From: Lachnospiraceae bacterium
GTDB lineage: Bacteria; Bacillota; Clostridia; Lachnospirales; Lachnospiraceae
NCBI GenBank assembly: GCA_014804425.1
Contig: JAAUZV010000012.1
Span: 21,775 to 85,774 of the forward strand
Length of the DNA stretch: 64,000 nucleotides
Direction of reading: 5' to 3'
Positions 36,491 through 56,807 of this stretch are shown here, one piece after another. The translations under genes and the position numbers were made by a program. The notes below the pieces were generated by a model. The model saw only the letters and a program-made list of their open reading frames with translations, did no database searches and was not told the DNA's origin. Positions within the stretch are counted from its first letter, which is position 1. Each line of letters begins with the position of its first letter.

Positions 36491-36496
36491 AAACGA

Positions 36497-37393: not shown

Positions 37394-37395
37394 CT

Positions 37396-37455
37396 GTATG
37401 ATTGTTGCGATTTGGAGTTCCCTTGAAAGTCTTCAAGGGAACTCTTTTATTTATG
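37396..37455 (+). repeat. 60-nt terminator block, copy A
   Basis: Begins GTATGATTGTTGCG and contains the perfect stem GAGTTCCCTTGAA (37415-37427)/TTCAAGGGAACTC (37432-37444) with loop AGTC, followed by TTTTATTTATG. It matches 55446-55505 at 54 of 60 positions. It is a strong terminator for the nuclease gene. Confidence 0.9.
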
Positions 37456-40446: not shown

Positions 40447-42271
40447 GATATGCCTCCAATTCGGTAAAGCCAATTCTCTTCCCACAACGCTCAAGGATTT
40501 TTATTTTTAATGAATTCGTCCTAATACCTAATTTTACGTCACAATAGGGAACGTCCCCGCAAAACAGATCAAAAGTCTGTCTGTATTGATTATTCGCCGT
40601 TATCAGAATCTTTTTTACATACATTTCTCCGCGATTTCTGTAAAAACGTAAAACGCCGATATCTACGGATTCAGAAAAAAGGATGGAAATTTCTTTGTTC
40701 CGGTCCGATTCGTTCGGGATCCATTCGCCGTCGTTAAACTCATACGGTGCAGTATTCAGCTTTTTCACGTCGGTAAGCATGAAATCATTCAAAAAGTCGG
40801 CATTTCCGGAAGATGCCGTAATTTTAGCGCCTAGCATCAGATTATCCGTTCTTCTTTGCCAGAAAACGCAGTCTTTCTTGATAAAGCAAGGGATATTTCG
40901 ATACATTCTTCTATACATGATCAGCGCGCAAATTGCCGGATTATGATAAACGTTTCTATTTAATAATTCCTTATCGGTTTTAATTCGAATCCGGTCGTTC
41001 CAACATAGACAGGGATTTTCTAATTCCGTCATATATTGCATAGGGTAGTAAGCGTCTTTTCGGGAGGGCTTATGTGTATACGGTAACCGGCGTCTAAAGA
41101 AATCAGGTTTTTGGTATGCACCAGTACTATAGACAAATCCCTTGTAAACGACGGGACGGTAATCATTGTTTTTCTTTAATAACGTTCCCATAGCTTCTTC
41201 AAACAGTAAAGAGTATGCCGTATGATCAGGATGTTTATCAAAATCATTTGTGATAATGAATTCGGGTAAAATACTTGAAATAACGTCACAGATATCAATA
41301 ATGACGTTTTCTCTTGTATATGCAGCAGGTTTGCCTGTTTTCAGAGTGCGCCAGTCTTTGATGTAACGGGATCCATACGTATGCGTATTCCCGTTTATTG
41401 ATGTCGACACGGTATCTGCAACGTTATAAATATGCTGCTGCTTCCACTTTGTACTATACCCCAGGCAAAAAATGCGCTCCCTTTTTACGCCCAGATAACC
41501 TAGGACATGCAAGGCCTCTTTGTGCCGTTCTACGGCATAATCTATTCCTTTTGTATCATTGTTGCAATAAAAGCAAATATAGACCCGCACATGATCTAGA
41601 ACGGCTTTCCTTATCATATTGCATGTCAAGAATACCTCATCGTCTCCGTGCGGAACCATGATTAATAACTTGGTATCCTTTTCACATAAGGCTTTTACCA
41701 CCAGATGGAATTCTTTTTTGCAGACAATGTTTCCGTTTAGCCTCATCTGCGCGGTTAAGGACACGGCGTTATCTTTTGTGCCCCTTGTCACGATATTTCC
41801 GCAAATATGCTTTTTGTCGCTGCTCAACCATACTATGTCTATTCCATAGGAAGATTTTTTCATGAGAGTGAGATCGCTGATCACGTTTTTTCTGTCTTTA
41901 TTTGCCCCAAGAATTTTTTGATATGTAATTTCATCAAGGCTTGATTGAATCCGCTCATTTAACGTCAGCGCCTTATAGCCAAAACATAATGGGATCGTTA
42001 ACTGAAACTTCATTATCTCATCAGAAAAATATGATTTTCCGACTGAAAGTGTGGCAATAAAATGAATCTTTTTGATATCTGCCGCATTATGATTAAAATG
42101 AATTTTTCCACGATCATCAATCAGAGCGGGGGTTTTGGATTTCCAAGTAATATAAATTCCGTTTCTGAATACAGGTAGCTTATAGTCGCAAGATATCGTT
42201 TTCCCCAGACTAAAAAGAATCAGCCAGATTGCTGTGGACATCATTTTGCAATAACTTTTTATTTTGCGCAC
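40439..42271 (-). CDS. PIG-L-family deacetylase with extra N- and C-terminal domains
   Basis: A 610-residue protein. The central PIG-L/LmbE deacetylase has zinc motifs PHGDDEVF (about residue 208) and HPDH (about 338). These enzymes remove N-acetyl groups from GlcNAc-type sugars. Before it are about 190 residues with a hydrophobic N-terminal segment (ISTAIWLILFSLG-type) and a beta-rich domain. After it is a beta-sandwich resembling F5/8-type discoidin domains (LGAKITASSGNADFLNDF, then ILERCGKRIGFTELEAY). It starts with GTG 42271. It probably trims glycan or sugar-lipid amides, perhaps at the membrane. Confidence 0.8.
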   Translation of the reverse strand: MRKIKSYCKMMSTAIWLILFSLGKTISCDYKLPVFRNGIYITWKSKTPALIDDRGKIHFNHNAADIKKIHFIATLSVGKSYFSDEIMKFQLTIPLCFGYKALTLNERIQSSLDEITYQKILGANKDRKNVISDLTLMKKSSYGIDIVWLSSDKKHICGNIVTRGTKDNAVSLTAQMRLNGNIVCKKEFHLVVKALCEKDTKLLIMVPHGDDEVFLTCNMIRKAVLDHVRVYICFYCNNDTKGIDYAVERHKEALHVLGYLGVKRERIFCLGYSTKWKQQHIYNVADTVSTSINGNTHTYGSRYIKDWRTLKTGKPAAYTRENVIIDICDVISSILPEFIITNDFDKHPDHTAYSLLFEEAMGTLLKKNNDYRPVVYKGFVYSTGAYQKPDFFRRRLPYTHKPSRKDAYYPMQYMTELENPCLCWNDRIRIKTDKELLNRNVYHNPAICALIMYRRMYRNIPCFIKKDCVFWQRRTDNLMLGAKITASSGNADFLNDFMLTDVKKLNTAPYEFNDGEWIPNESDRNKEISILFSESVDIGVLRFYRNRGEMYVKKILITANNQYRQTFDLFCGDVPYCDVKLGIRTNSLKIKILERCGKRIGFTELEAYHE

Positions 42272-42274
42272 GTA

Positions 42275-42982
42275 CTAATCCTCCAACAAAAAAATCGTAT
42301 CGCCTTCCAATAAACCATATTTATTTCTACCGCTATTTTTATAACTGATTCTTTTTACTTTCATTCCGCTCAATTTTTCCAGCCGCTCTTTTACATCCCT
42401 TCCGTAAAACCTCTTATAAACAGACTGACCTATATGCTTTCCGGATGGAAAGATCATTGTTTGATCTAAACCGATTCCAATCGGAACGGAAAGAATCATT
42501 TTTCCGTTTGGTTTTAATACCCGCTTCATTTCGCGGATTGCCTGTTCGTCATCCACATATTGTAAGACGTAATTGCAGATAATCCAATCAAAACTGGCAT
42601 TCTTAAAACAGATATTTTCGATATCTACAATACGATCGGCCCGTCCCTTCAGGATGTCACCTGAAATATATTTGCATCTAGGATTCTTTTTTATTTTATC
42701 GCGTATTCCGCTTTCAGGCGCAAAATGGAGTATTGCCAGTTTTTGCTCATAAATGGGCGTATACTTTTGAATGCAGAGATCCATAAAACGGGTACGGTCT
42801 TTATTTCCGCACACAGGGCAGATGACATGATCACGATATCCGCCGCCAATCACCTTTGCCTGTTCAAAAAACTCTTCTTTGCCGCCATCAGGCTTCATGT
42901 GATTCACCCATGAATCACATATATTGCAATAATATCTGATACCGAAATACTTCATCTTTTTTACGGTCTTATCGAATTTCAT
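42275..42982 (-). CDS. Class I SAM-dependent methyltransferase with N-terminal zinc ribbon
   Basis: A 235-residue protein. CNIC near residue 19 and CPVC near residue 55 form a zinc-ribbon. The methyltransferase_11 core follows: ILHFAPESGIRDK replaces the usual GxGxG loop, and DWIICNYVLQYVDDEQAIREM is the conserved motif-IV region. It most likely methylates a sugar or polysaccharide terminus in this glycan cluster. It ends 3 bases before the deacetylase gene begins. Confidence 0.8.
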   Translation of the reverse strand: MKFDKTVKKMKYFGIRYYCNICDSWVNHMKPDGGKEEFFEQAKVIGGGYRDHVICPVCGNKDRTRFMDLCIQKYTPIYEQKLAILHFAPESGIRDKIKKNPRCKYISGDILKGRADRIVDIENICFKNASFDWIICNYVLQYVDDEQAIREMKRVLKPNGKMILSVPIGIGLDQTMIFPSGKHIGQSVYKRFYGRDVKERLEKLSGMKVKRISYKNSGRNKYGLLEGDTIFLLED

Positions 42983-42995
42983 AATATCCCCTTAT

Positions 42996-44030
42996 CTAAC
43001 AATTTTCAAAATCGTCTAACATTGTATAAATTATTGTTTGTATTTTCTTAGGACTATTTTGCATAATCTCTTTCAAAATCGGATCCTGCTCCAGTTCGTT
43101 TTTGAACTGGGAATAATAATTTCTGCAAAGCGGGGTATGCATATATTTATGATAGCTTGCATCTGCCTTTGTTTTGTCACGCCACATGCCGAAATGCAGC
43201 CCGTGGTGGGGTCTGAAATTGTGTGATCGCATATCGCTGCAGAATAGGATTTCTGTTTTGTCATCTGCCTGTTTGGGCAACCGTAAACGAGACTTCTTAA
43301 TGAGATGGTATAAAAATGTCTCGTCCGAATAAGATGCATAGTATTTCATTATTAATTTATATATTTTATTAATAATATGATTCTTATAGTAAACATTGAA
43401 AAACTTATCAGCCTGCTTTTTTATGGCGGGATAATAATCACGGGTATTAACAAAATGTAAGCCGGTGATACGTTTATGATAGAAAAACTTGTTATATAGC
43501 TTATGCAGCTTTGTGATCGGAATAAATAATCCAAGTTGTTTCAGCACTTTTTGATGTTTACAGATCCATTTGGGCAAAGGTGGCTCACTATATGCTCTGA
43601 CGATATTGCTGAATACCGACTTTTGGGCGGTCATATGTAATATATGCTGTTCATGCAGCGGAACATCTTCTTTACATATATAAATATCAATATCCCCAAT
43701 ATAAACATATTGATAATTTTCAAAAACATCATCGTACATTAGCCATCTATATGCTTTCATCACCGGACGGGGAAGCGTCTGCGCAATCTTATCAACAAGG
43801 CACACCCGGTATTTTTCTCCGTACCCGGGAATTAATTTCAACAGCTTTAATGTTTCTTTTCGCAATTTTCTGTCAACATAAACAATTGCATCGTAATCGG
43901 GGTAATGTTTATAAAGCGAATAAAATTGAAATGGGATATAGCCTTGATAATCATATCCGAACACGAACGTCGCGATAAGCAATGTTTTTGGGGGAGCTGC
44001 ATTATAAGATTTCTTCGGGGCACGCATCAT
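42996..44030 (-). CDS. Glycosyltransferase-like protein (GT-A type, DxD)
   Basis: A 344-residue protein starting with a GT-A-like pattern: LLIATFVFGYDYQGYIPF, FQFYSLYKHYPDYDAIVYVD, and the metal-binding DxD in YVYIGDIDIYI (about residues 112-122). The later SDETFLYHLIKK and HHGLHFGMWR segments look like the acceptor side. I cannot name the CAZy family. GAAAGGA precedes the ATG-ATG start. It lies in line with the other glycan genes. Confidence 0.7.
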   Translation of the reverse strand: MMRAPKKSYNAAPPKTLLIATFVFGYDYQGYIPFQFYSLYKHYPDYDAIVYVDRKLRKETLKLLKLIPGYGEKYRVCLVDKIAQTLPRPVMKAYRWLMYDDVFENYQYVYIGDIDIYICKEDVPLHEQHILHMTAQKSVFSNIVRAYSEPPLPKWICKHQKVLKQLGLFIPITKLHKLYNKFFYHKRITGLHFVNTRDYYPAIKKQADKFFNVYYKNHIINKIYKLIMKYYASYSDETFLYHLIKKSRLRLPKQADDKTEILFCSDMRSHNFRPHHGLHFGMWRDKTKADASYHKYMHTPLCRNYYSQFKNELEQDPILKEIMQNSPKKIQTIIYTMLDDFENC

Positions 44031-44045
44031 ATAGAGTCCTTTCTG

Positions 44046-45221
44046 TTAATCTTTCAAAATGATATTCCATTTTTTTATTACTTTGTCAAAGCAAAACATT
44101 TCCGCACGATTCAAGGATGCCTTTCGGTATTTTTGATACAAATCTTCATTCGTCAGGATTGCCAGCATCGCTTCTCCCAATAAAGTCTCTTCTTCACAGA
44201 GTGGAGATTTTTCATTTAATTGATCCATTGGCATATCAGGGGTCAATATTCCGTATCTGCAGAGCATCATGGTATTGGCTTTGCCCATTCCTTTAGGTTT
44301 TCCTACAATTTCTCCGCAGGATCCCGGTGAATCTGTCGTGATGACAGGCGTCCCGCATCCCATGGCCTCAACCATGGCATTGCTAAATCCTTCCGTTTTA
44401 GATGCGATAACATATGCCCGCGCATGGCTAAAATACCATGTTGGCTCATCTGTAAATCCCAGAAATAGTACATGATCCTGTACAGCACATTTGCGGCATA
44501 GATGTTTCAAATAGCGCAGTTGGGGTCCTTTTCCCAGAATAATCAGCGTTGCGTCAGGTTCTTTTTGATGCGCATAAGAAAACGCCCGGATAATTCGTTC
44601 CTGCTGTTTTATAAAGAAAAGTCTGCCTGCGCATATTAGGACTTTATCCCCGTATTCCCATTCTCTGCCGTCGTTTACGTTCGTTATCCCATTTGATATA
44701 TTGGGGATCTTGATCAGGCGGGAACCCGGAATCCCATATCGGGACCTCATTTCATGATACCCATCATCACTGAGAACAATTACTTTATCTGCTTTCTTAT
44801 AAAAAAAGCTTACTATATTTTTTTTATAATAAAAACTTTTGGGATATAAAGTTTCATATGCCGATAACGTATGACATACTCTTGTTATAACGAGTTCGCG
44901 CCCTTTTGATAAAACATTCAGATAGTTTGCATCTTCCATAAAACTGACCGCCGCATCAATTTTATACTTAAATTTAAGCACTCTGATTTTTAGGGAAGAT
45001 AACAGCAGTCTGATCATTTTTTGCGTATGGCTTCGACCTGCGTTCAAATCAATATCTGCATATATGATTTTCCCTTTCACCGCATAGTCCTGCGTTATTT
45101 GGCGGTTCAATATAAAATAATAAACGGTATCACCCTGATCTACGTAATAATTACCGACTATCTGCGCAATCCGTTCTGCGCCACCGCCGGTGAGCGATGA
45201 TATGATAATTGCTATATTCAT
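44046..45221 (-). CDS. Glycosyltransferase family 4-like protein
   Basis: A 391-residue GT-B enzyme. The N-terminal acceptor domain begins IAIIISSLTGGGAERI. The C-terminal donor domain has VLICAGRLFFIKQQ, TLIILGKGPQLRYLK and the nucleotide-sugar motif ASKTEGFSNAMVEAMGCG (about residue 282). The first Gly of the usual EGFGxxxxE is in SKTEGFSNA. It transfers a sugar during repeat-unit assembly on the cytoplasmic face; donor and acceptor are unknown. Confidence 0.87.
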   Translation of the reverse strand: MNIAIIISSLTGGGAERIAQIVGNYYVDQGDTVYYFILNRQITQDYAVKGKIIYADIDLNAGRSHTQKMIRLLLSSLKIRVLKFKYKIDAAVSFMEDANYLNVLSKGRELVITRVCHTLSAYETLYPKSFYYKKNIVSFFYKKADKVIVLSDDGYHEMRSRYGIPGSRLIKIPNISNGITNVNDGREWEYGDKVLICAGRLFFIKQQERIIRAFSYAHQKEPDATLIILGKGPQLRYLKHLCRKCAVQDHVLFLGFTDEPTWYFSHARAYVIASKTEGFSNAMVEAMGCGTPVITTDSPGSCGEIVGKPKGMGKANTMMLCRYGILTPDMPMDQLNEKSPLCEEETLLGEAMLAILTNEDLYQKYRKASLNRAEMFCFDKVIKKWNIILKD

Positions 45222-45229
45222 TTTAGTGT

Positions 45230-46420
45230 TTACGCCTTCCTATTACGATATTCCATACGAATAACCTGCTCATACAATTGCAGCATCTTAGGCACCACAT
45301 ACTGCGGCCGGAGGCGCAGGATTGTTTTGTGCGCCATGGCAGCAACCCGTTCCAGTTCCGCATCATCCGCATGTAAGACCTTTTCTGCAACGCGCAGCAG
45401 ATCATCCCCGTTTCCGGGCAGCGACAAGTACCCCGACACATCATCACTGATCAATTGATCCAGACTGGAATTCCACGTGCCGATCACCACTTTTCCGTGA
45501 TACATTGCCTCCTGACAGCTGTTCGGCAGATTGTCCGTCAAAGAGGGCAGTACGAGCGCATAAGAGTGTTTTATAACGGGAAGCAGCTTTTCATGTGAAA
45601 GATTCCCGAGATAAATGATCCTGTCACGATTCGGCCGCGCTTTATTCCTCAAAATCTGTAATGTATTTACTCCGTTAAAAAAAGCCGGAATGCCCGCAAA
45701 GACAAAATACAATTCCTTATGACTGCTTAACAGTCTGCCTATCATGTCCGCGATCGTCAATATGCCTTTATTGGTTGACATTCTTCCGAAATAAAAAAGA
45801 TATTGTTTCCCTTTGAGCTGTTTGTCATATATGGAAGTATCCCACTGATCCGGCTCGCAGTCTTCCCAGAACGGCGTCTCGATCACATGAATTTTTCTCT
45901 GAATGTCTTTCTGCAATTGGTCTGCGACGATATTGCTGGGCGAAATCACCGCATTCATCCTACGAGCCGCAAGCCGTTCCATTAAAGAAATCACATTGAC
46001 CTGGTGTTTTGTATGATTAGCGGTAAGCTGTACTTTACAGTAGGAGGACATTCTCATAACCGCCGGGATTTTTCCGCTGTGTAAAATTCCGACGCCAAAC
46101 CATCCGGTATACTGGATCATATCAACGGTTTTTTCCTTACATATTTTAGAAATCCTTCGCTGAAGACAATAATCCCTCAAGACGGCATTTACACCATAAT
46201 GAATCCATGCCCCTTTTCCCGGTATGGAAACGGTTTTAACGGAACATATTTCTACGCCGTCATAATCCCATAGCCGATTTTCAACATCAGCAGCGACAAT
46301 AGAAGCGTGGTGTTCTGTCTGTGTATTCAGATACCGACACATTTTATATAAATATCTGGGCATGCCGGTAAGTGGTTCTCCATGACTTTCAAATGCTCCG
46401 GTAACAAATAAAATATTCAT
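45230..46420 (-). CDS. Glycosyltransferase family 4-like protein
   Basis: A 396-residue GT-B protein starting NILFVTGAFESHGEPLTG. Donor-domain marks are YLFYFGRMSTNKGILTIADM, RIIYLGNLSHEKLLPVIKHS and VLPSLTDNLPNSCQEAMYHG (about residue 295), where the EGF motif is degenerate (TDNLPNSCQE). It is preceded by a GGAGG-type site and follows the next glycosyltransferase by 14 bases, within one long operon. Confidence 0.85.
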   Translation of the reverse strand: MNILFVTGAFESHGEPLTGMPRYLYKMCRYLNTQTEHHASIVAADVENRLWDYDGVEICSVKTVSIPGKGAWIHYGVNAVLRDYCLQRRISKICKEKTVDMIQYTGWFGVGILHSGKIPAVMRMSSYCKVQLTANHTKHQVNVISLMERLAARRMNAVISPSNIVADQLQKDIQRKIHVIETPFWEDCEPDQWDTSIYDKQLKGKQYLFYFGRMSTNKGILTIADMIGRLLSSHKELYFVFAGIPAFFNGVNTLQILRNKARPNRDRIIYLGNLSHEKLLPVIKHSYALVLPSLTDNLPNSCQEAMYHGKVVIGTWNSSLDQLISDDVSGYLSLPGNGDDLLRVAEKVLHADDAELERVAAMAHKTILRLRPQYVVPKMLQLYEQVIRMEYRNRKA

Positions 46421-46434
46421 GCATTCCTCCGCGT

Positions 46435-47613
46435 TTATTTCTCTATTGAGATCAGCTCCTTCAAGGTGTTGATATTTCCCTGATTGTAATGTGCAACAAA
46501 ACGAACCGCTTCCACGGAAAGTCTCATGGCGGCCTCGTCGTTGTTTACGATTTCTACGACCTGTTTCGCAAAGTCCTGTTCATTTTTTGCCACGATCAAT
46601 GCGTCTTTCTGCGCAAGGATTCCTCTTGCGCCTTTTGGCGTCGTGACAAGCGGTTTCGCATATGCCAGCGCCTCTATCGTTTTGATATTTAATCCCGTTC
46701 CCTGCGTCGTCGGGTTGACGATCACTCTGGAAATTTGATAAATTTCTTCTACGTCAGCAACAACCCCTAACTTTTTGTACCGGCTGCTGTCGGGTATTTC
46801 TTTACAGACAGTTCCTGCGATCAGGAATTGAATCTCCGGATCAAGACGAAGGATCGTCGGCAAGATTTTTTGAATAAACCATTCACATGCCAGAACGTTC
46901 ATTCGATAGGAGGAGCCAAGGAAAGAGATATTTTTATTCTTTACGAAATAGGGCTCGGCGGTCTCAATGCTGTCCCCGATCGTGAATACCCTTTTTTGCG
47001 CATTTGTCAGTCGCCTAAAATAGTGTTCTTCTTCTTTTTGGATCGCGATGATCACATCCGCCCGCTCCAGCGCCCGTTTTTCTTCTTTCTCACTGATATA
47101 AAAAAACGGGAGAGAAGAGTGTGGGTCCAAAAACAGTTTATGACGGTCGGCCATCTTATCGTGCGTATCAATTATTTTTACGACATGATCAGGAAGCTGC
47201 AAAAATATCGGGGAATAAAACAGATATTCGCACATCACGGCATCCACATGTATTTTTTTCGCCAGCGCACTGACATATTCCGCGAGACCGGCCGGATATA
47301 AATCATCTGCCAAATATTTGATGATTATTTTTTTATCCAATCTTAGAAATTTCAAAGTTTTCCGCAGATAGCCGCAAAATAAAATGCGGGGATTTATTTT
47401 GTGCTTCGCTTGATTGTATACAAACAGTCCTTTTCCGAACAGCCGTTTCATGGGCATGATGTTCTCTTTGCTGCCTGGCGCAACCCATAGATAAGATACC
47501 TCTACTCCCTGTGTCCGAAAATTGTTTATCAAATTCAGGATACGTCTTTTACTGCCGCTGATCGTCGGAAACAGATTGATTCCTGAAACGATTAAAATAG
47601 ACTTCATTTTCAT
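46435..47613 (-). CDS. Glycosyltransferase family 4-like protein
   Basis: A 392-residue GT-B protein. The N-terminus is ILIVSGINLFPTISGSKRRI. A diverged donor half has ISFLGSSYRMNVLACEWFI, IQFLIAGTVCKEIP, then VNPTTQGTGLNIKTIEALAYA (about residue 310), where GTGLNIKxxEAL replaces the common EGF motif, as in several sugar transferases with four-helix linkers. The start could also be ATG 47607. Same operon. Confidence 0.82.
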   Translation of the reverse strand: MKMKSILIVSGINLFPTISGSKRRILNLINNFRTQGVEVSYLWVAPGSKENIMPMKRLFGKGLFVYNQAKHKINPRILFCGYLRKTLKFLRLDKKIIIKYLADDLYPAGLAEYVSALAKKIHVDAVMCEYLFYSPIFLQLPDHVVKIIDTHDKMADRHKLFLDPHSSLPFFYISEKEEKRALERADVIIAIQKEEEHYFRRLTNAQKRVFTIGDSIETAEPYFVKNKNISFLGSSYRMNVLACEWFIQKILPTILRLDPEIQFLIAGTVCKEIPDSSRYKKLGVVADVEEIYQISRVIVNPTTQGTGLNIKTIEALAYAKPLVTTPKGARGILAQKDALIVAKNEQDFAKQVVEIVNNDEAAMRLSVEAVRFVAHYNQGNINTLKELISIEK

Positions 47614-47632
47614 GCTGCCTTTCTAAAGGTTT

Positions 47633-48922
47633 TCAAACATTCTCTGTAATTGCGCTATAATACCGTTCCTTCGGATTGTCCTCTCCATACAGAAACCGCC
47701 TGACCTTTCGCAGCTGTTCCATATATGCGTCAGGATCATTTTGCATATTCTTTAACAGCGCATCCATACCTTGCCTGCTGTCTGCTTTCCCCCATGAGAT
47801 GCCTTTGCAGACGTCCCCATCCACATCTTCGTCCCTGATATACCGGAATGCCGGAATACCGCAATAAACGGCATCACCAAATGTTGTGCTGTTGCCGCAT
47901 AAAAGAAAATCTACATCCTCGAATAATTCATTTAACCGTGTTCGGTTATCATAGGTTTTTTTACAATAGTTCGGATTAACGCAGGACGTATAATTTGTCA
48001 CTTTATCTGATGGATGTACTTTCAAAATGTAAGTAGCGTTATATTTATCAGCCAGAAAATCTGCAATTTCGATCAAAGATTTATTTTTCTGCCAATCTTT
48101 TTTTGTTAATACAATGGCAAGACAAACGATAAATCGACTAATCTGAATGTGTTTTTTGTCCACATATATGGGTGATGTACTTTTGACAAGTGTATTAATG
48201 TTGCCAACCAGTATGATCCTGTTTTCAGCGATACCGCATTGTACTGCAGTTTGTTTGGAGTATTCTCCCCACAGCAATAAATATCTTGCATTAGAGCATT
48301 TGTAATCAATATAATCATATGTACCGTTTACAATCCCGTGCTCGAGTGTGTACGTGGTGTAGGATTTCTGATTACATTTTTGAACTAAAATACTGTCGAT
48401 TTCTAATACATCGAAAAAGAATATCAGCTTCCTGACAGAGGGATAGCGTTTAATGATCTGAAACATTTCTTCTGCATACGCCGCAGACCGGCACAATCGC
48501 CGGCACAGCCCGTTTTTTATGTAATCAGGGCATGCCAAATGTTTCATTTGCATACGCCAGATTGGGAGCAGCAAAATGTACGGATTCCATTTTGGTCTAG
48601 CTGTCCGGTTCTCGCTTGCAGTGATCACAACCTTATTCTGAAACAGGCTTTCAACTGCTTGAAACTGCGTCAAATGATCTTTTCTGCTTAGGTGGGAGTG
48701 TGAATAGAGAAACGCGCATTCAGGATTCTCCCCCCGCTTCTTTATGGAAAAGCTCTCTGTCATGCACAGCCCGATATTACGAACGCTTTCCTTTGTCCAT
48801 TTAGAAACATGCCACAATGCGGTAGACAGAACATCCCCCACCTTGATTCCTTCTAAACCCACAAACGAGATCTTGTTCAATTGACTGATAAGCTTTTGCT
48901 TTCTTTTCGGCTCAAGTTCCAT
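47633..48922 (-). CDS. GT-B-fold transferase-like protein (CDP-glycerol transferase/capsule type)
   Basis: About 429 residues. The pattern YTLEHGIVNGTYDYIDY then YLLLWGEYSKQTAVQ, ATYILKVHPSD and FLLCGNSTTFGDAVYCGIP resembles CDP-glycerol glycerophosphotransferases and related capsule synthesis transferases, in which HG and HPxD motifs bind the donor. I cannot fix the donor. ATG 48922 has GAGGTAA 9 bases upstream and is preferred over TTG 48949. Confidence 0.65.
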   Translation of the reverse strand: MELEPKRKQKLISQLNKISFVGLEGIKVGDVLSTALWHVSKWTKESVRNIGLCMTESFSIKKRGENPECAFLYSHSHLSRKDHLTQFQAVESLFQNKVVITASENRTARPKWNPYILLLPIWRMQMKHLACPDYIKNGLCRRLCRSAAYAEEMFQIIKRYPSVRKLIFFFDVLEIDSILVQKCNQKSYTTYTLEHGIVNGTYDYIDYKCSNARYLLLWGEYSKQTAVQCGIAENRIILVGNINTLVKSTSPIYVDKKHIQISRFIVCLAIVLTKKDWQKNKSLIEIADFLADKYNATYILKVHPSDKVTNYTSCVNPNYCKKTYDNRTRLNELFEDVDFLLCGNSTTFGDAVYCGIPAFRYIRDEDVDGDVCKGISWGKADSRQGMDALLKNMQNDPDAYMEQLRKVRRFLYGEDNPKERYYSAITENV

Positions 48923-48981
48923 GCTCTTTATTACCTCATGATGCGTCAAAATTTTCTGCCGTCTCCTTGATTTCCAAGAGC

Positions 48982-50055
48982 TTAGTGAAAGAACGGCTTA
49001 AGCACCTTTACAAAATGCTCTAATTCATAAATGCTCAGATCATTCAGCATATCCGGATTGTTTTTCCGATATTCTTCAATCAGGTTCGGAATCTGACGAA
49101 TATTTGTATATCCGATTCCCTTGATCCGATTATTCTCCAAAATTTCTATCGGAGCGATTGGGATACAGCCGACGAATATGCCGTCCAATAACACTCCGCT
49201 TGTTCTGTTCCCATATATTTTGGTATTGTAATTTACGACAACAAATTTAGACTCTGCCAACAATCTCCAATAGTCATCATCCTGTAAATAACAATCGGTA
49301 ACGTTTACTTTACCACTTCTATTAATGTGGGCTACTTGCGACGGCGTCAGACAATTATCCCGTATTCTTCCCTTGACCACCAGCGGAATTCCGATATTAT
49401 TCTTACAAAACAGCTTAATCACGCTCGTCACATTTTTCCCGGGAGTGATCAGCCCAACGGAAGCCACCCGGTCTGATTTGGGTACCTCATATAATTTCTT
49501 TTCCGCCTCTGTTCTAAAATAATCCGGCAGATAGACCGATTTCTTACCCTGCGTACAAGTCGGATTTGTTGTAATACATAAATCCAGCCGGTTTACCCCC
49601 TTTTTTATTTGCCGTTTCCTGTGTTTGCCCAAATACTCCGCATCACGCAAGTACCAATCCCAATTCATATAGGTTGTAGCGATCAGCTTTCTCTTCATCG
49701 GCAAAACTGCCAGCATACTTAAAATAATTTCATTTACGAAAATATACCAGACATATTTTCCTCTTGCGCGAAAATAGGTGAAAAGGTAATTTGTCGTCAG
49801 TTGTATCTTCATTCCTAATGCAGCTTCAACATTCGCCTTATCCGTTACATGGCAGGGCAGATATTGCTTGTTCTTACAGCAAATATCTTTTAATGTTTCC
49901 CTGCCTGCGATCACTTCTATTTTTTCCGGCGGATAACCGAGATGAAGCAGAATCTGTATGGTCTGCTCAATTTGCTTTTTCAGATGTCCTATCGTATTTC
50001 CGTTTTTATCTAACAAATTATTCAGACATATAATACTGACTTCCAAATCCGGCAT
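48982..50055 (-). CDS. Glycosyltransferase-like protein, GT4-related
   Basis: About 357 residues from ATG 50055 (GGGAGGGAAG upstream). The N-terminal part (VSIICLNNLLDKNGNTIGHL) is diverged. A GT-B donor half is suggested by VASVGLITPGKNVTSVIKLF, IPLVVKGRIRDN and VNYNTKIYGNRTSGVLLDG (about residue 295), where the Glu of the EGF motif is not obvious. A role in the same glycan pathway is inferred from context. Confidence 0.65.
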   Translation of the reverse strand: MPDLEVSIICLNNLLDKNGNTIGHLKKQIEQTIQILLHLGYPPEKIEVIAGRETLKDICCKNKQYLPCHVTDKANVEAALGMKIQLTTNYLFTYFRARGKYVWYIFVNEIILSMLAVLPMKRKLIATTYMNWDWYLRDAEYLGKHRKRQIKKGVNRLDLCITTNPTCTQGKKSVYLPDYFRTEAEKKLYEVPKSDRVASVGLITPGKNVTSVIKLFCKNNIGIPLVVKGRIRDNCLTPSQVAHINRSGKVNVTDCYLQDDDYWRLLAESKFVVVNYNTKIYGNRTSGVLLDGIFVGCIPIAPIEILENNRIKGIGYTNIRQIPNLIEEYRKNNPDMLNDLSIYELEHFVKVLKPFFH

Positions 50056-50149
50056 GTTCTTCCCTCCCGCACAGAAGTGTGCCACCCTGTCACATCAATC
50101 ATCGGATTTTCTGATTTTTCACTTATCAAAAAGCATATTTTCCCTTATC

Positions 50150-51310
50150 TCATGATAATCCCTTAAGGATCCTGCAAAATATTTCCGCCGCCCGCCGCCA
50201 TGTAAATTTCATTGCAAACCGATAGTTCTTTTCCATAAAATCAGTATCCGCCGCCTGCCTGTCTGTTTCCATGAGTCCTTCGCAAATGCTTTTTGGAGAA
50301 AATGGATCTGCCAGTATCGCGTGCCCCTCACCGATCTCTTTCATGGAAGAGCAGTCAGATGTCACCACCGGAATTCTGCTCGCCATCGCCTCTATGACCG
50401 GTATGCCGAATCCCTCATATTCGGAAACGAACAGCAGTGCCTTTGCGTTTTTGTATAACGCGAGCTTTTCTTCATCCGTGATATAGCCCAAAAACAGTAC
50501 CTTTTCCCTTAATCGCTGATCAGCATCCACATACTTTTTCAGATTACTGTATTCATGACTCTTGCTTCCGGCGATGTAAAAGTAAACATCTTCTTTTCCG
50601 GTTTCCTTGAGGTATTTTTCAAAGCCCTTTATGGCATTCAGCAGATTTTTATTCTTGCGCATTGCACCGATATAAAGATAGTAGTTTCGTGAAAAATCAA
50701 TGCCGGATTCCGGCACAAAATGCCTGGTAATGTCAAAAACCGGACTGTCTTTCAGAAAACATTCATCAAGTCCGTTATAAATGACCTTTATCCGCTCGGG
50801 ACGGATATGTAAATAATGGATAATATCCATCTTTGTTGTCTTCGAAACAGTCAGAATGATGTCTGCCTTTTTTGCTGACGCAAACATCTTTTGATGTTTC
50901 TGCAGGTCTTCTTTGGTGTAATATTGCGGGTAGCGCATGGACATCATATCGTGGATCCATGCAATCCGTTTGTATGGCAGAAGATGCCGGTACCACGGAA
51001 ACGACTCAAAACAGGTCGGATAATATCCCTGTGCCAGCTCTACCGGGGGAGCACCCCATGCTTCCGGCCAGATAAACCGGCGCTCATAAACAAGATGCTG
51101 CTTGATCCATGCATTCTTTTTCGGTATGAGATATTTTCTGACAGAAATATCATTTTTTCTGACTGAAATGACAAAGGGAATCCCCTGGTCATGGAGGGCT
51201 TTCGACAACTGCTCCTGACAATATCCGACGCCCGTCTTGTTTTCAGCAAACATAAGGGAAAACCCTGTGACCAATATCGGTTTTTGGTTCCTTTTAGCTG
51301 ATTCCACCAT
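50150..51310 (-). CDS. Glycosyltransferase family 4 protein
   Basis: About 386 residues, GT-B. The acceptor domain begins KPILVTGFSLMFAENKTGVG and the donor domain has YYLYIGAMRKNKNLLNAIKG, KVLFLGYITDEEKLALYKNA and FVSEYEGFGIPVIEAMASR with the full EGFGxPxxEAM signature (about residue 300). It resembles mannosyl- or rhamnosyl-transferases of the WbaZ/MtfB type. GAGG lies before ATG 51310. It overlaps the end of the preceding gene by 17 bases, showing tight coupling. Confidence 0.9.
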   Translation of the reverse strand: MVESAKRNQKPILVTGFSLMFAENKTGVGYCQEQLSKALHDQGIPFVISVRKNDISVRKYLIPKKNAWIKQHLVYERRFIWPEAWGAPPVELAQGYYPTCFESFPWYRHLLPYKRIAWIHDMMSMRYPQYYTKEDLQKHQKMFASAKKADIILTVSKTTKMDIIHYLHIRPERIKVIYNGLDECFLKDSPVFDITRHFVPESGIDFSRNYYLYIGAMRKNKNLLNAIKGFEKYLKETGKEDVYFYIAGSKSHEYSNLKKYVDADQRLREKVLFLGYITDEEKLALYKNAKALLFVSEYEGFGIPVIEAMASRIPVVTSDCSSMKEIGEGHAILADPFSPKSICEGLMETDRQAADTDFMEKNYRFAMKFTWRRAAEIFCRILKGLS

Positions 51311-52376
51311 CAATTACCTCGTCAAACTGATCGAATGATTTCTTCCATGTAAATTTGCGGACACATCGCATTCCGGCATATGCCATGCGGATTCTTTGGT
51401 CTGATTCTGACAGCAGTTTGATTACTGCGCCGGCAAGTGCTTCCGTGTCCTTCACGTTCCTGACAAGCGCTGTCTGTCCGTCCATGGCAAAATCCCTGAT
51501 CCCGCCGTTATCCGTCGTCACAACAGCGCACCCGCACGCCATTGCTTCCATAGGGGGCAGCCCCCATCCTTCACAAGTGCTTGTGCATAGAAATACAGAT
51601 GAACGGTTATAGATTTCTTTTACCAGTACTTCCTGCTTGGGGTTTTCATAATATTCCATCCACTTTGGTATGCTGCCCGTTCTCCTGTCAACGCCGAACA
51701 GTTTTACTTTCAGCTCCGGAATCTGCTCCCTGACCTTTTTTAAGACTGCCAGCCCGGTCTTGGAATCCTTAAAGTTACTGTCATGGCTGTAGAGCATGCT
51801 GACCGTGCAATCCCTGTCCTCTATATCCCGGTATACCCGGAACTTGTGGCAGTTAATTGCATTAGGGATATAAGTCATCCTGCTGCAGTTCATCTTCCTG
51901 CCAATATCTAACAGCCACTTGGATATGACGATCTTTTCCATGTCGTAATGCCACGTTTCATCGACATCCTGTTTCCTTCCGCTCCAAGTCTCATAATGTT
52001 GGATAAGATATACTTTTTTTCCGGCATGCCGGAGCGTATCTAATACTACTGCCGTTTTCCACATCGTTGCGATTGTCACATCCGCATCCGGAATCGTCCG
52101 GCGATTGAGATCAAATACATATCTGCAATGCACCGCCTTGTGAAAGCGAAACCAGTTCTTCTCTCCCGACGCCAGTTTTAGAAGATCGCGCGCGTACTGT
52201 ACGATGTGTTCCGGCTTTTTCTGAAAATCGCTGCATACCTCATGGATGACCGTTACACGGTACCCGTTAGCGGCAAGATGGTTTGCATAAATATACGCAA
52301 TCTTAAAACCGCCTACCGGGCGCAGGCCGAAATTCGGCAACAATATATTAACTCGCCTTTGCTTTTGGTCAGCCAT
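51294..52376 (-). CDS. Glycosyltransferase family 4 protein
   Basis: A 360-residue GT-B protein: NILLPNFGLRPVGGFKIAYI at the N-terminus, then SMLYSHDSNFKDSKTGLAVL, LKVKLFGVDRRTGSIPKWM and CTSTCEGWGLPPMEAMACGC (about residue 270), a clear EGWGxPxxEAM donor motif. It is similar to rhamnosyl-glucan/rhamnan synthesis transferases. Position within the minus-strand operon fits a role in the same repeat unit. Confidence 0.88.
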   Translation of the reverse strand: MADQKQRRVNILLPNFGLRPVGGFKIAYIYANHLAANGYRVTVIHEVCSDFQKKPEHIVQYARDLLKLASGEKNWFRFHKAVHCRYVFDLNRRTIPDADVTIATMWKTAVVLDTLRHAGKKVYLIQHYETWSGRKQDVDETWHYDMEKIVISKWLLDIGRKMNCSRMTYIPNAINCHKFRVYRDIEDRDCTVSMLYSHDSNFKDSKTGLAVLKKVREQIPELKVKLFGVDRRTGSIPKWMEYYENPKQEVLVKEIYNRSSVFLCTSTCEGWGLPPMEAMACGCAVVTTDNGGIRDFAMDGQTALVRNVKDTEALAGAVIKLLSESDQRIRMAYAGMRCVRKFTWKKSFDQFDEVIDGGIS

Positions 52377-52421
52377 AGCTACTCCAATCCCATCCTGCGG
52401 AATATAAAATAAACCCCATTC

Positions 52422-53423
52422 CTACCACTCCAGCCCCATTCCGCGGAACATAAAATACAGATAAAATCCGTTATTATGTACGACTGCATCCCGAATGCGT
52501 CTGTCCTTATCTATCACCCGGATCTTCGACTTGTCCGGTACCTGCTTACAGACGAAACGGAGCATCCCCGCCTTCTGCCAGATATGATACGGACACTTCT
52601 TCTGATTCATATATGTGAACACGTTCTGTATCCAATCCATCAGCCGCAGATAATAGCAGTCCTTCTGATAACGCTCCACATCCAGCTTTTCCAGAAGCTT
52701 CCATTCCCGCTTCATGTTCGTGACCATACTCGCGATCAGGTTGACATTGAACTTTCCTGTCGTACTATGTTCTTCCCGCTGAATCCAGTAATAATAAATT
52801 CTGGGATTCAGGACAATGCAGGAGGCATTCTCATAACAGCCATAATTAAACCATGCATCCTCCTGGCCGAACTTCATACACTCCGGGAAACGGATCTGAT
52901 GCCCCATCACCATGCTTCTGCGATATAACCCGCTCCAGACCGCGACATAACTTGCGACAAGCGCGAAGTACTCCTTTGCGATCCCTTCCCCTTTCAGCAC
53001 GGCAAATTTCGTCAGGCGGTCCGAGGTCTTGATCTGCCGCCCGTTTTCCTTGTACGCGATCTTCAGCCGCTTGAACCTTATCACATCCGCGTCATATTCT
53101 TTTGCAAGTGCATAATTATCCCGGATGAGATCCGGAAGATATTTATCGTCATTGTCGCAGAACGCCAGATACTCTCCGCACGCTGCCCTTACCCCCGCAT
53201 TCCTTGCAGAGGATATCCCCCCGTTGCTTTTATGGATCACGCGGACCCGCCCATCTCGTTTGGCGTAGTCATCACAAATACCGGCACAGCCATCCGTCGA
53301 ACCGTCATCCACCAATATCAGTTCAAAATTTTTGTGCGTCTGTGCGAGCACGCTTTCGATCGCGGACGGCAAATGCTCTCTGGAGTTGTAGACCGGCATG
53401 ATCACGGAAACATCTGGCTGCAT
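52422..53423 (-). CDS. Glycosyltransferase family 2 protein
   Basis: About 333 residues from ATG 53423, which follows a GGAGGGATGGG ribosome site; longer in-frame starts up to 53528 are unlikely. GT-A motifs: VSVIMPVYNSREHLPSAIES, LVDDGSTDGC (about residue 41), SSARNAGVRAACGEYLAFCDNDD with the DxD-type metal site (about 95). The enzyme adds one sugar from a nucleotide donor on the cytoplasmic face. Second gene of the minus-strand operon. Confidence 0.92.
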   Translation of the reverse strand: MQPDVSVIMPVYNSREHLPSAIESVLAQTHKNFELILVDDGSTDGCAGICDDYAKRDGRVRVIHKSNGGISSARNAGVRAACGEYLAFCDNDDKYLPDLIRDNYALAKEYDADVIRFKRLKIAYKENGRQIKTSDRLTKFAVLKGEGIAKEYFALVASYVAVWSGLYRRSMVMGHQIRFPECMKFGQEDAWFNYGCYENASCIVLNPRIYYYWIQREEHSTTGKFNVNLIASMVTNMKREWKLLEKLDVERYQKDCYYLRLMDWIQNVFTYMNQKKCPYHIWQKAGMLRFVCKQVPDKSKIRVIDKDRRIRDAVVHNNGFYLYFMFRGMGLEW

Positions 53424-53537
53424 TCCCATCCCTCCTCTGTCACATTGCATGGGATTCTCTGATCCTGTTCTGCATGGCATTGATTGTGCCCGACAATAAA
53501 ATCCATTTGAAAAGCCCTTCGGTTGCATCGGCAGGTC

Positions 53538-54329
53538 TTACCGATACCACGCCTTTGCCATATGATCGTTATGCCGCTTCGATGCAGGCGGCGGTGTCAT
53601 ATAATCGCCGTATAAATGTCTCAGGTAACGGTCATACCCCAACGGCGCCGCAAATTTTCTTCCTTCAAACATAAGCGTCACTGTCTGCACAAGTTCCTTT
53701 TTGGGCATAATCTCTTTCAGGTGATAACCCATGACCGAGCAGCCCGCATACCTTGGTGATGCCGTGTACTGCCTCTTTGCACGGTGTTCCAGTATCCGCG
53801 AGACTGCGCGCATGCATCCGCGGTTCCAGGCGATAAGGAGGCGGTTCTTCTCATCCGCCGTGCTGATGTTGTAATGCCGCTGAAAATGTTCCCGCAGTCT
53901 CTTTTGTATATGATAATGACGGACTACTGCCTGTTTATCATCCGGAAGATCATCCAACGGGAATAGGTCTACGCAGACCCCGTCTGAGGAAAATGGGATG
54001 CAGCCGCTCTGCCGCAGATAAGTCCTCGTATCGACCACCTTTGCGAACGGGTAGTAATATTCCCTGTCGTTATGTATGCAGAGTGCGCGATATGGACTTT
54101 GGTCTGCATTGACAAGCCGGATCAATTTTTCATAATCTTTACGCAACAGCATCATATCGGCATCATCATCCCAGGGGATAAAGCCGCCATGCCGAACGGC
54201 TCCAAGCAGCGTCCCACCGGACAACATACAGTTCAGATCATGCTTTTTTGACAGTTCGTCCAAATACACCATGATGTCAAAAATGATCTTTCGGTATTCT
54301 TCAGCGGTACTGATCGGCTTCATTTTCAT
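53538..54329 (-). CDS. LicD-family phosphotransferase, first gene of the minus-strand glycan operon
   Basis: A 263-residue protein of the LicD family, which attaches phosphocholine or other phospho-polyols to teichoic acids and polysaccharides. The nucleotidyltransferase-like core is GGTLLGAVRHGGFIPWDDDADM (read here in two parts: GGTLLGAVRHGG at about residue 38, then PWDDDADMMLL), with FAKVVDTRTYL after it. AAAGG is upstream. It starts only 33 bases from the left recombination site, and no promoter facing it is evident in the present orientation. Confidence 0.92.
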   Translation of the reverse strand: MKMKPISTAEEYRKIIFDIMVYLDELSKKHDLNCMLSGGTLLGAVRHGGFIPWDDDADMMLLRKDYEKLIRLVNADQSPYRALCIHNDREYYYPFAKVVDTRTYLRQSGCIPFSSDGVCVDLFPLDDLPDDKQAVVRHYHIQKRLREHFQRHYNISTADEKNRLLIAWNRGCMRAVSRILEHRAKRQYTASPRYAGCSVMGYHLKEIMPKKELVQTVTLMFEGRKFAAPLGYDRYLRHLYGDYMTPPPASKRHNDHMAKAWYR

Positions 54330-54361: not shown

Positions 54362-54391
54362 ATTTTTCCTAAAGTTATTATCTTTAGGAAA
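54362..54391 (+). repeat. Left crossover site (30-bp inverted repeat, IR-L)
   Basis: Two perfect inverted arms, TTTCCTAAAG and CTTTAGGAAA, flank the asymmetric 7-base core TTATTAT, with ATT before the left arm. The whole 30 bases recur without mismatch, in inverted orientation, at 55596-55625. The arm-core-arm form is that of a tyrosine-recombinase crossover site such as loxP or FRT. A recombinase gene lies between the two. Confidence 0.95.
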
Positions 54392-54408
54392 ATTCCGAAA
54401 TGGCAATT

Positions 54409-54438
54409 TTGAACAGGCTCCGATATACTGCTCATAAG
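54409..54438 (+). promoter_or_regulatory. Possible promoter of the recombinase gene
   Basis: TTGAAC (54409-54414) with CATAAG (54433-54438) at 18 bases, or TATACT at 54424-54429 with a poor -35, lie inside the invertible segment and face the recombinase gene. Neither is strong. Transcription from here moves with the gene when it inverts. Confidence 0.4.
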
Positions 54439-54488
54439 TCAAGCGCCCCAAGGATCGGGAATAAAATTGAATTTGGAGGTTACATAGG

Positions 54489-55451
54489 ATGAATCAAATG
54501 ACACTGGAAGAATGGATGATTTTATGGTTGGAGGATCACAGACCGTTTATCAAAGAATCAACTTACGGAAACTACTCGACGATTATTCATAACTACATCA
54601 TTCCGCAGCTTGGAAAAAAACGGTTGTGGGAATTGGATGAGCAATGTTTACAGGAATTTACACTTTATCTGCTCTCAGACGGGAGCAAGCGGCACAGTGG
54701 CGGCCTTTCAGAAAAAACGGTACATGATGTTTGGAATGTGCTAAAAGAATCACTTCGCAAGGCGCATCGACAGAAGAAGATTGACAGCTCCGATTTTAAG
54801 GTATCTTTCCCGTCATCTCGCACCAAGAAAAACGTAACGGTGTTATCGGATCATGATTTTGATTTGTTGTCGGAATATCTTTTCCGCCATAGTGATTCCC
54901 GAAATTTGGGAATATTGCTCGCACTGTATACAGGTATGCGGATTGGCGAGATTTGCGCCTTAAAATGGGAAAATATTAATTTGGAGGAACGTTTGATTCA
55001 TGTTCAATATACTTTGCAGCGCATATATATTAAAAATCAAAACAATCAGAATGTTTCTTATGTTACGATGACATCCCCCAAATCTCTTGCCTCTATCCGA
55101 AGTATTCCGCTCACCATGAACTTAGCAGAGTATTTGAGTTGTTACTATAAACGAAACAGGATTTGTGCGGATGATTACCTGCTAACCTGTTCTTCGCAGT
55201 ATATCGAACCGAGAAGCTATGAGAATTATTATAAGAAGATTCTAAAACACGTCGGCATTTCGGCTATCCGCTTTCATGCACTCCGGCACACTTTTGCGAC
55301 ACGCCTGATCGCGCATGGTGCGGATTATAAGATTGTCAGTGAGCTTCTCGGTCATCGATCCGTTACAACGACACTACATTTGTATGTTCATCCGCAGCTT
55401 ACACAAAAAAGGAGATGCGTGGAGCTGTTGGCAAATTCTGAAAGAGTATGA
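54489..55451 (+). CDS. Tyrosine-type site-specific recombinase (DNA invertase)
   Basis: A 320-residue phage-integrase-family enzyme. The N-terminal SAM-like core-binding domain covers about residues 1-100, the catalytic domain about 115-310. All catalytic residues are visible: Arg151 (YTGMRIGEICAL), Lys198 (TSPKSLASIRSI), His263 and Arg266 (HALRHTF), His289 (LLGHRS) and nucleophile Tyr299 (LHLYVHP). No AP2-like arm-binding domain is seen. GGAGG stands 9 bases before ATG 54489. The gene is enclosed by a perfect inverted repeat shaped like its likely crossover sites, so it probably flips the segment that carries it. Confidence 0.95.
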   Translation: MNQMTLEEWMILWLEDHRPFIKESTYGNYSTIIHNYIIPQLGKKRLWELDEQCLQEFTLYLLSDGSKRHSGGLSEKTVHDVWNVLKESLRKAHRQKKIDSSDFKVSFPSSRTKKNVTVLSDHDFDLLSEYLFRHSDSRNLGILLALYTGMRIGEICALKWENINLEERLIHVQYTLQRIYIKNQNNQNVSYVTMTSPKSLASIRSIPLTMNLAEYLSCYYKRNRICADDYLLTCSSQYIEPRSYENYYKKILKHVGISAIRFHALRHTFATRLIAHGADYKIVSELLGHRSVTTTLHLYVHPQLTQKRRCVELLANSERV

Positions 55452-55505
55452 TTGTTGCGTTTCGGAGTTCCCTTGAAGGTTCTCAAGGGAACTTTTTTAT
55501 TTATG
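55446..55505 (+). repeat. 60-nt terminator block, copy B
   Basis: Matches 37396-37455 at 54 of 60 bases. Stem AGTTCCCTTGA (55466-55476)/TCAAGGGAACT (55483-55493), then TTTTTT. It overlaps the last codon and stop of the recombinase gene and should stop its transcription before the outward promoter. Confidence 0.9.
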
Positions 55506-55553
55506 GAATTTAATGGTGATTCTCAAAAAACATGAAAAAATATTAAAAAGCGA

Positions 55554-55582
55554 GTGAAAGTAGTCGATATATGATGTATAAT
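55554..55582 (+). promoter_or_regulatory. Outward-facing promoter at the right end of the invertible segment
   Basis: GTGAAA (55554-55559) and TATAAT (55577-55582) have a 17-base spacer; the -10 is perfect, the -35 matches at 4 of 6. Transcription would begin near 55589, a few bases before the right crossover site, and enter the plus-strand glycan cluster. On inversion it would face LicD from about the same distance. Confidence 0.75.
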
Positions 55583-55595
55583 GTGTAAAGAGTCA

Positions 55596-55625
55596 TTTCC
55601 TAAAGATAATAACTTTAGGAAAAAT
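55596..55625 (-). repeat. Right crossover site (30-bp inverted repeat, IR-R)
   Basis: Exact reverse complement of 54362-54391: arms TTTCCTAAAG and CTTTAGGAAA around ATAATAA on the plus strand. The segment bounded by both sites, 54362-55625, is 1264 bp and holds the recombinase gene, its terminator and the outward promoter. In RNA the site would form a hairpin in the 5-prime leader of the next gene. Confidence 0.95.
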
Positions 55626-55646: not shown

Positions 55647-56807
55647 ATGACGATATGCGAAAAACCGATTTCCTATCATCAGCTCATGCGCATGATACGG
55701 GACGAACAGCAGACCGGAAAAGGAATTGATTTCCTTGCGGTGGCAATGACGTCGTGGCATGTCATGGGGATTTTGTCCGTACTGCTCCGGTTGTATGACA
55801 CAGGGAAAATCTCAAGGGGCATCATTGTCATCCAGCGCTATTACGAACTCGGATGGGCAGTTTCCGAGGATCTGTTTTCCCTCCTGAATGACAGGGATAT
55901 TCAGGTTGTCAGACTGATGGATCTGCCGAAGCTTTCCCAGGAAGATTTCCTGCATTGGGCGGCAGGCACACCCAAAAAGCGGACGGGCAATGAATGTTAT
56001 TGTATCGTTCCGCAGGTTCCGATGCCGCTGATTGCCCGCGATCTGGAAAAACTTTTCCCAAAGCGGGGTGTTATCCATATCATTGTTGACGAGGGACTCG
56101 GTACTTATACACGTTCCGTATGGGGCTTCGTACATTTATGCACAGCCGACCTGCATGACTGGGGCGAGCGTTTCAATGTCGCTGCAGAATGGACACAGCG
56201 TTATGCCGCTAAGGCCGTCCTGTCCTGCGCGCACCGTCTGATCGACTGCAACCTATTCCGCAGGCTGCCCATGCACATACGGATCAATGTGCCTACCGTA
56301 TCGGCGTACCGCAGGATGTACCGCGCCATGGGGGCAGGGATTGATTTTTCGGAATATGCCCATTACGCAAATGCGATCATCATCAGCGGGCAACCATATA
56401 CGAGCAGCGGTGTCATGTATGAGAACGAGGATATCACTGCTTTGCGGAAGGTCTGCGCTCATTGCAGGGAAAAGGGGCTTCCGGTTATCATCAAGCCGCA
56501 TCCGCGCGAGATGCACAGAGAACGTTATCAGCCATTGCTTGACATGGGATGTCAGTTAGAGCCGAACCAACAGTATCCGATGGAGCTGATCTTGGCGAAT
56601 CTGAAAGAGAAACCGTTAGGGATCGTCGGGATGACCAGTACGCCGCTGATCACCGCAAAGCTGTTTTGGGACATACCGACTTACTCCGTTGCAGGATTGT
56701 TGCGTCCCGAAAATATGCGGAAGGATCTTCGGAAAGAAATGGACAGCTTCCGACGAAAATTTCAGAGATATGTGAAGATGATAAAGGAACCCGCGGAGGT
56801 AGATTGA
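55647..56807 (+). CDS. Polysialyltransferase-like glycosyltransferase, first gene of the plus-strand cluster
   Basis: About 386 residues. FLAVAMTSWHVMGILSVLLR at the start, VIHIIVDEGLGTYTRSVWG (about residue 140), LPVIIKPHPREMH (about 291) and VGMTSTPLITAKLFWD (about 340) fit the alpha-2,8-polysialyltransferase/GT52-like type, in which an HP motif and a Ser/Thr-rich loop bind the donor. Which sugar is used is open. Start ATG 55647 has GGGGGAT upstream. The frame is open back to ATG 55581 across the crossover site, but that start overlaps the -10 box, so it is unlikely to be transcribed. Confidence 0.75.
   Translation: MTICEKPISYHQLMRMIRDEQQTGKGIDFLAVAMTSWHVMGILSVLLRLYDTGKISRGIIVIQRYYELGWAVSEDLFSLLNDRDIQVVRLMDLPKLSQEDFLHWAAGTPKKRTGNECYCIVPQVPMPLIARDLEKLFPKRGVIHIIVDEGLGTYTRSVWGFVHLCTADLHDWGERFNVAAEWTQRYAAKAVLSCAHRLIDCNLFRRLPMHIRINVPTVSAYRRMYRAMGAGIDFSEYAHYANAIIISGQPYTSSGVMYENEDITALRKVCAHCREKGLPVIIKPHPREMHRERYQPLLDMGCQLEPNQQYPMELILANLKEKPLGIVGMTSTPLITAKLFWDIPTYSVAGLLRPENMRKDLRKEMDSFRRKFQRYVKMIKEPAEVD

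Follow-up and report, generated by a model that had tools for sequence, protein, structure and literature searches.

Hin is a serine recombinase; the promoter of its switch drives one operon, and the second operon is shut off by a repressor. In the sap inversion of Campylobacter fetus, one promoter is found between divergent surface-protein genes and gives rise to alternative surfaces. The Salmonella switch, i.e., the Hin/fljBA flagellar switch, is named in two reports (PMC5903667, PMC11868660). Invertible promoters of gut bacteria (invertons) include those of Bacteroides polysaccharide loci (Mpi), the RecV switches of C. difficile and cps1 of Akkermansia (PMC5903667, PMC11892184, PMC13343947). 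According to one of these reports, the recombinase usually lies close to its switch and is encoded inside it in occasional cases, and a fimbrial inverton of Providencia stuartii comprises a putative 844-bp invertible segment that encloses a recombinase ORF (PMC5903667). For Clostridia, another report places a tyrosine-type invertase group (invertase group 35) within 5 kb of nearly all members of inverton group 139 (PMC11892184). Switches that act by DNA inversion, invertible promoters of gut polysaccharide loci, and recombinases encoded inside their own segment are already known.

Here we describe a 1.26-kb cassette, located in a 64-kb window (i.e., the whole stretch of DNA that was analysed), which by its sequence is very probably a self-contained DNA-inversion toggle, in which a single promoter could be joined to the one or the other of two divergent gene runs, both predicted to be glycan operons. 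As in the Hin switch, the recombinase gene lies inside the segment, here together with a predicted outward promoter. Unlike Hin, the cassette is not a Hin-like switch in the strict sense (i.e., one with a serine recombinase), as Pfam classes its enzyme as a tyrosine recombinase, and its one predicted promoter could serve either of two divergent operons directly. The sap inversion of C. fetus, with one promoter between divergent surface genes, resembles this predicted arrangement, but it concerns S-layer proteins, with homologous gene cassettes in place of glycan operons. The P. stuartii inverton resembles the window cassette in that the recombinase ORF lies inside the segment, but differs in its 14-bp imperfect repeats, in its fimbrial locus and in belonging to another phylum. 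With the gut invertons, in which DNA flips between inverted repeats next to genes for surface polysaccharides or other surface features, often close to a recombinase, the cassette shares the inverted repeats and the predicted flipping; it differs from them in that the recombinase lies inside the segment and predicted glycan operons lie on both flanks. Inverton group 139 with its invertase group 35, compared here by description only, may belong to the same wider class, but the available description holds no site sequence, no statement that the recombinase lies inside and no two-operon toggle (PMC11892184). The new part would be the predicted service of two divergent glycan operons by one self-carried promoter; a search of the open-access literature at the level of titles and the beginnings of abstracts found no glycan toggle with two operons and the recombinase inside.

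The segment is bounded by a left site at positions 54362 to 54391 (+ strand; TTTCCTAAAG-TTATTAT-CTTTAGGAAA plus 3 extra outer bases) and a right site at positions 55596 to 55625 (- strand), which is the exact reverse complement of the left site. An inverted-repeat search recovered this pair as 30 nt with 100% complementarity and a spacing of 1204 nt; with arms within 3 kb of each other, it is the longest perfect inverted repeat in the window, as compared to longest repeats of 12 to 17 nt in 20 order-1 Markov sequences. In both copies, 10-bp arms (TTTCCTAAAG and CTTTAGGAAA) surround an asymmetric 7-nt core (TTATTAT in the left and ATAATAA in the right copy). An earlier note on this DNA had claimed both the exact 30-bp inverted repeat and this anatomy, and the search bears it out on each count. 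As in an inverton, the inverted sites face each other, at the level of sequence, around the segment that they enclose. When the genome was searched with a site pattern in which both arms and 2 of the 7 core positions were fixed and 2 mismatches were allowed, only the two sites of the window were matched.

The sole recognised gene between the two sites (positions 54489 to 55451, + strand) encodes a tyrosine recombinase of 320 aa with a SAM-like core-binding and a catalytic domain. Pfam identified the catalytic domain as PF00589 (E = 1.7e-29) along with an N-terminal SAM-like domain, and Phage_int_SAM_3 is among the Pfam domains of this protein. Among solved structures, XerA (5hxy) and an Int protein (6emy) are nearest in sequence, and an alignment to both of them placed the six usual residues at R151, K198, H263, R266, H289 and Y299, which we take to be the catalytic residues of a tyrosine recombinase. 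On this understanding of the residues, the protein is a member of the tyrosine recombinases, and the complete enzyme with all catalytic residues that the earlier note had placed between the repeats is indeed present. The gene is encoded inside its own segment, as it is in a related locus of the same genus (L006, see below). The protein is not a FimB/FimE-type invertase, as it scored 27 bits against NF007370 and 25 bits against NF007371 (NCBIfam), for which the cut-offs are 221 and 222, respectively. A protein database held 884 relatives at E <= 1e-60; among the 120 of these that were listed, ten full-length proteins were 74 to 93% identical and the next was 48% identical. Further relatives of the 74%-identical protein (P0009) beyond the genus were not found among 395 genomes of relatives and 391 genomes of the class (E <= 1e-90).

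A hairpin that resembles an intrinsic terminator (positions 55464 to 55495, + strand; 13 pairs followed by a T-run) lies 3' of the recombinase gene. The search found 2 terminator-like sites as compared to 1.6 +/- 1.1 in shuffled sequences, and a sequence resembling this hairpin occurs at the equivalent place in two related genomes (G002 and G004) and is absent from a third (G003). Further along, 13 nt inside the right site, is an outward promoter-like site (GTGAAA-17-TATAAT; positions 55554 to 55582, + strand), which in the window orientation points at the operon that begins with a polysialyltransferase-like gene. Taken alone this site is a weak consensus match (its -35 element being GTGAAA), and the number of promoter-like sites found was 7 as compared to 4.7 +/- 2.3 in shuffles. 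The TATAAT element and its surroundings are conserved in G000, G002, G003 and G004, and homology among these four genomes ends right after the site beyond the promoter end, where the sequence diverges at once. Support for this predicted promoter comes from its conservation in four genomes. A possible promoter for the recombinase itself (ATGGCA-18-TATACT; positions 54400 to 54429, + strand) is weak and is not kept in G004. A candidate outward promoter at the 5' end of the recombinase gene (TTGCCA-18-GATAAT, with its -10 element in the site core) was rejected because its -35 element is not kept in G004.

The predicted left operon (positions 37580 to 54329, - strand) consists of 14 consecutive ORFs over approx. 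17 kb, and begins with a LicD-family gene (positions 53538 to 54329, - strand) whose start codon is 32 nt outside the left site. In addition to LicD, Pfam identified several glycosyltransferases, a methyltransferase, a PIG-L deacetylase, a hexapeptide transferase and a citrate-lyase-ligase domain protein; 3 of the 14 ORFs had no match (E <= 0.001). The predicted right operon (position 55647 to the window end at 64000 and on beyond it, as seen in locus L145; + strand) spans more than 20 kb. Its first gene (positions 55647 to 56807, + strand) resembles alpha-2,8-polysialyltransferases (PF07388) and starts 21 nt outside the right site; the start at 55647 was used here, the mechanical ORF start at 55581 being one that reads through the right site. 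Glycosyltransferases and a GFO/IDH/MocA oxidoreductase are also encoded within the window, and DegT aminotransferases and a hexapeptide transferase past it; of 14 right-hand ORFs put to Pfam, one had no match. That each of these gene runs represents one operon is predicted from strand and spacing. As the first genes start 32 and 21 nt outside the sites, there is almost no room for external promoters. The terminator-like hairpin, the outward promoter-like site and the two divergent gene runs, which suggest what the cassette is for, were not part of the earlier note. Immediately beyond the left operon, positions 36168 to 37455 hold a block with a PD-(D/E)XK ORF (PF12784, Rpn-like) and the same terminator, which is 90% identical to sequence beside the promoter end in G002 and belongs to a repeat family with 9 to 21 matching stretches per genome. 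Elsewhere in the window, two adjacent ORFs (positions 4163 to 5755 and 5927 to 6910) look, judged by eye, like a GMP synthase of full length and a shortened version that lacks the N-terminal part.

If the cassette functions as its anatomy suggests, the encoded recombinase would bind the 10-bp arms, exchange strands at the 7-bp core and invert the segment reversibly, and the promoter would read across the adjacent site into whichever operon faces it. In this assembly the right operon would be ON and the left operon OFF, and the reverse would hold after a flip; the terminator would keep transcription of the recombinase separate. The population would then be expected to be mixed, with one surface polysaccharide displayed to the exclusion of the other. 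We infer enzyme action, transcription and flipping frequency from the anatomy of the locus and from comparison with its relatives, and the same applies to flipping by the encoded enzyme and to flipping within a culture.

Comparison among five genomes of the genus detected the recombinase (E <= 1e-40) in three, i.e., the window's genome, G002 (locus L005 on contig G002:C14; 94% identity to the window) and G004 (locus L006 on contig G004:C23; 90% identity), with an open reading frame in both relatives. These relatives are metagenome-assembled genomes (Lachnospiraceae and uncultured Lachnospiraceae, respectively). In L005 and L006 it is the 5' end of the recombinase gene, not the promoter end, that abuts the polysialyltransferase-like gene, which is the opposite of the arrangement in the window. 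Unflipped, the window aligned to either locus in pieces that break at the site. When the window segment was flipped in silico, the recombinase and polysialyltransferase-like genes formed one 2460-bp alignment with 90.4% identity to L005 and 88.3% identity to L006. The promoter end (176 bp) stayed a separate alignment piece even after the flip because the relatives carry extra sequence between recombinase and terminator; in G004, the extra sequence inside the segment includes two short remnants of the PD-(D/E)XK block, and in G002 the promoter end is on another contig than the recombinase. The earlier note had predicted that both orientations would be found in related genomes, and between species, i.e., in the window as compared to L005 and L006, this was the case. 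The outcome that it named as speaking against a switch, i.e., loss of the repeats where the recombinase is kept, was not seen in the genus, as two sites are present in each relative that has the recombinase (in G002, on two contigs). An identical 119-bp sequence occurs at three contig ends in G002 (G002:C14:1-119, G002:C17:1-119 and the end of G002:C1), and the join of the two G002 cassette halves that we propose from these sequences is likely, not unique.

The gene opposite the promoter end is a family-2 glycosyltransferase in G004 and a group-1 glycosyltransferase in G002, and LicD in neither of them. The polysialyltransferase-like flank is thus shared, and the other side of the cassette varies between species. 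Overall, the position of the cassette between divergent clusters and its reversal in two related species make it likely that flipping selects the active cluster.

A difference in orientation between species need not mean frequent flipping. The alternative that survives best, though we consider it unlikely, is that the inversion was rare or happened a single time in the past, leaving a promoter that no longer moves, a relic of a recombinase and no working phase switch. Each genome showed one orientation, as this alternative would have it, and G003 possibly represents a locked switch. In G003, the promoter and a single intact site are located ahead of a glycosyltransferase operon (L143, positions 15134 to 15228; G003:C106), and neither a recombinase nor a polysialyltransferase-like gene was detected in the 130 contigs of this genome (91% complete). 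In G001, no match was obtained in the searches for recombinase, site, promoter or polysialyltransferase-like gene. A relic would, however, hardly be expected to retain an open recombinase gene with 90 to 94% identity in relatives and, in the window, a protein that has kept each of the six usual residues. Moreover, all 7 sites found in the genus, including the lone G003 site, share the same core (2 of its 7 positions having been fixed in the search pattern), the site pair of the window is perfect, and pairs in the wider set of loci described below keep the core better than the arms, although exact seeding favours matched centres there. We prefer the reading as a working toggle.

Tyrosine recombinases of this family often act as integrases. 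Together with the Phage_int_SAM_3 domain and the similarity to the Int protein 6emy, this would fit an explanation in which the repeats mark where a transposable element ends or serve an integrative element as attachment sites, and in which the two orientations arose from independent insertions. This is highly improbable, as the cassette has a single copy in its genome and no second copy was seen in the genus searches. A DNA search found no second cassette in its own genome, and there was no close second copy of the recombinase (the next match by E-value was 26% identical and other weak matches were short). The sole other DNA match to the cassette in this genome, besides that of site to site, covers 60 bp at window positions 37396 to 37455, which is the terminator end of the PD-(D/E)XK block. 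Independent insertion also fits poorly with three genomes in which the cassette has the same position beside the same gene, with homology switching at the site, and a mobile element fits poorly with a segment that, in the window, holds no other recognised gene and has no relative in IMG/VR (one scan with P0009). Finally, although each site is itself palindromic around its core and one is flagged as terminator-like on one strand, it is scarcely credible that the repeats are mere terminators or hairpins around a recombinase that acts elsewhere, as the 30-bp match spans an asymmetric core that a hairpin would not need, the orientation swap breaks at the sites, and the pattern search of the genome, at up to 2 mismatches, found no other site for the enzyme.

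To place the proposed toggle among its homologs, 112 loci were compiled, i.e., the window, 80 of 219 confirmed loci, 28 loci from a family search (which had matches in 92 of 397 genomes, part of these being taken in) and 3 further loci from genome G118. In 26 of the 112 loci, the recombinase lies between matching inverted sites. No flanking inverted pair was seen in the other 86, some contigs being too short (90 of the 112 loci have > 500 nt on both sides of the recombinase); L005 is not counted among the 26, as one of its two sites lies on a separate contig. In an earlier run with 108 loci, 22 scored 19 or more, as compared to scores of up to 15 in a reversed-not-complemented control. Three of the 26 pairs (L055, L069 and L083) look like other repeats. 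At least 8 of 9 arm bases are paired around a 7-nt spacer in 14 of the 26 pairs; among random 45-mers, 43 of 2000 reached 8 paired bases with any spacer of 4 to 10. The common arms in this set are TTCGTAGAG/CTCTACGAA.

A match to an outward promoter (at least 10 of 12 consensus positions) occurs in 11 of the 26 cassettes just inside the end on the 5' side of the recombinase and in three (the window, L006 and L158) inside the end on its 3' side, as compared to 99 of 3120 (3.2%) AT-rich control stretches drawn evenly over the 26 loci. At a threshold of at least 9 of 12, these numbers were 14/26 and 5/26 for the two ends and 425/3120 for the control; 12 of the 26 cassettes showed a match of 10 or more at neither end. 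Recombinase ORFs measured 360 to 409 aa in cassettes with a 5'-side promoter (n = 11) and 314 to 324 aa in those with a 3'-side promoter (n = 3). Six cassettes (the window, L006, L012, L041, L083 and L148) are flanked on both sides by an outward ORF that begins at most about 100 nt from the repeat; in L012, whose recombinase is 40% identical, one flank holds a DegT aminotransferase and the opposite flank a family-2 glycosyltransferase. As 26 of the 112 loci have inverted sites and 14 of them a strong match to an outward promoter, the window cassette appears to belong to a wider class.

For the 20 of 26 pairs with a clear palindrome (score of 7 or more), the mates differ at 43 arm positions as compared to 1 core position, numbers to be read in light of the exact seeds and gapless extension used, which favour matched centres; 17 distinct cores were observed among these 20 pairs. 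The 6 pairs left out of this count have palindrome scores of 4 to 6 and together show 18 arm and 4 core mismatches. Genome G118 contains four cassettes (L152, L160, L161 and L162) and a lone site, with arms TCGTAGAG/CTCTACGA (up to 2 mismatches). Its sites show five different 7-bp cores, which are identical within each pair, and its four recombinases are 70 to 88% identical. These differing cores could possibly act as natural private addresses.

We tentatively propose, with more doubt than attaches to the toggle itself, that Lachnospiraceae carry a portable class of cassettes in which a recombinase and an outward promoter are placed between loxP-like 10-7-10 sites, before or between surface operons. 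The arms would set the recombinase family and the 7-bp core would be the private address that keeps cassettes of the same genome apart; the window would represent a two-operon form that chooses one of two complete glycan coats. If the toggle operates as proposed, the choice between two large glycan operons falls to one small cassette, and both coats would be present at the same time within a clone, with relevance to phage resistance, immune recognition and colonisation. With enzyme, sites and promoter packed into some 1.3 kb, the cassette would also represent a compact natural toggle and a potential genetic tool, and the wider set suggests a class whose naturally differing cores could supply mutually independent sites.

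Related recombinases were also observed in two loci from Bacteroidales and Muribaculaceae metagenome-assembled genomes (L041, positions 2660 to 10372, and L083, positions 2552 to 10431), where the gene lies between two large divergent ORFs. The repeats of these loci overlap the 5' parts of the large ORFs, which, judged by eye, presumably encode SusC-type transporters.
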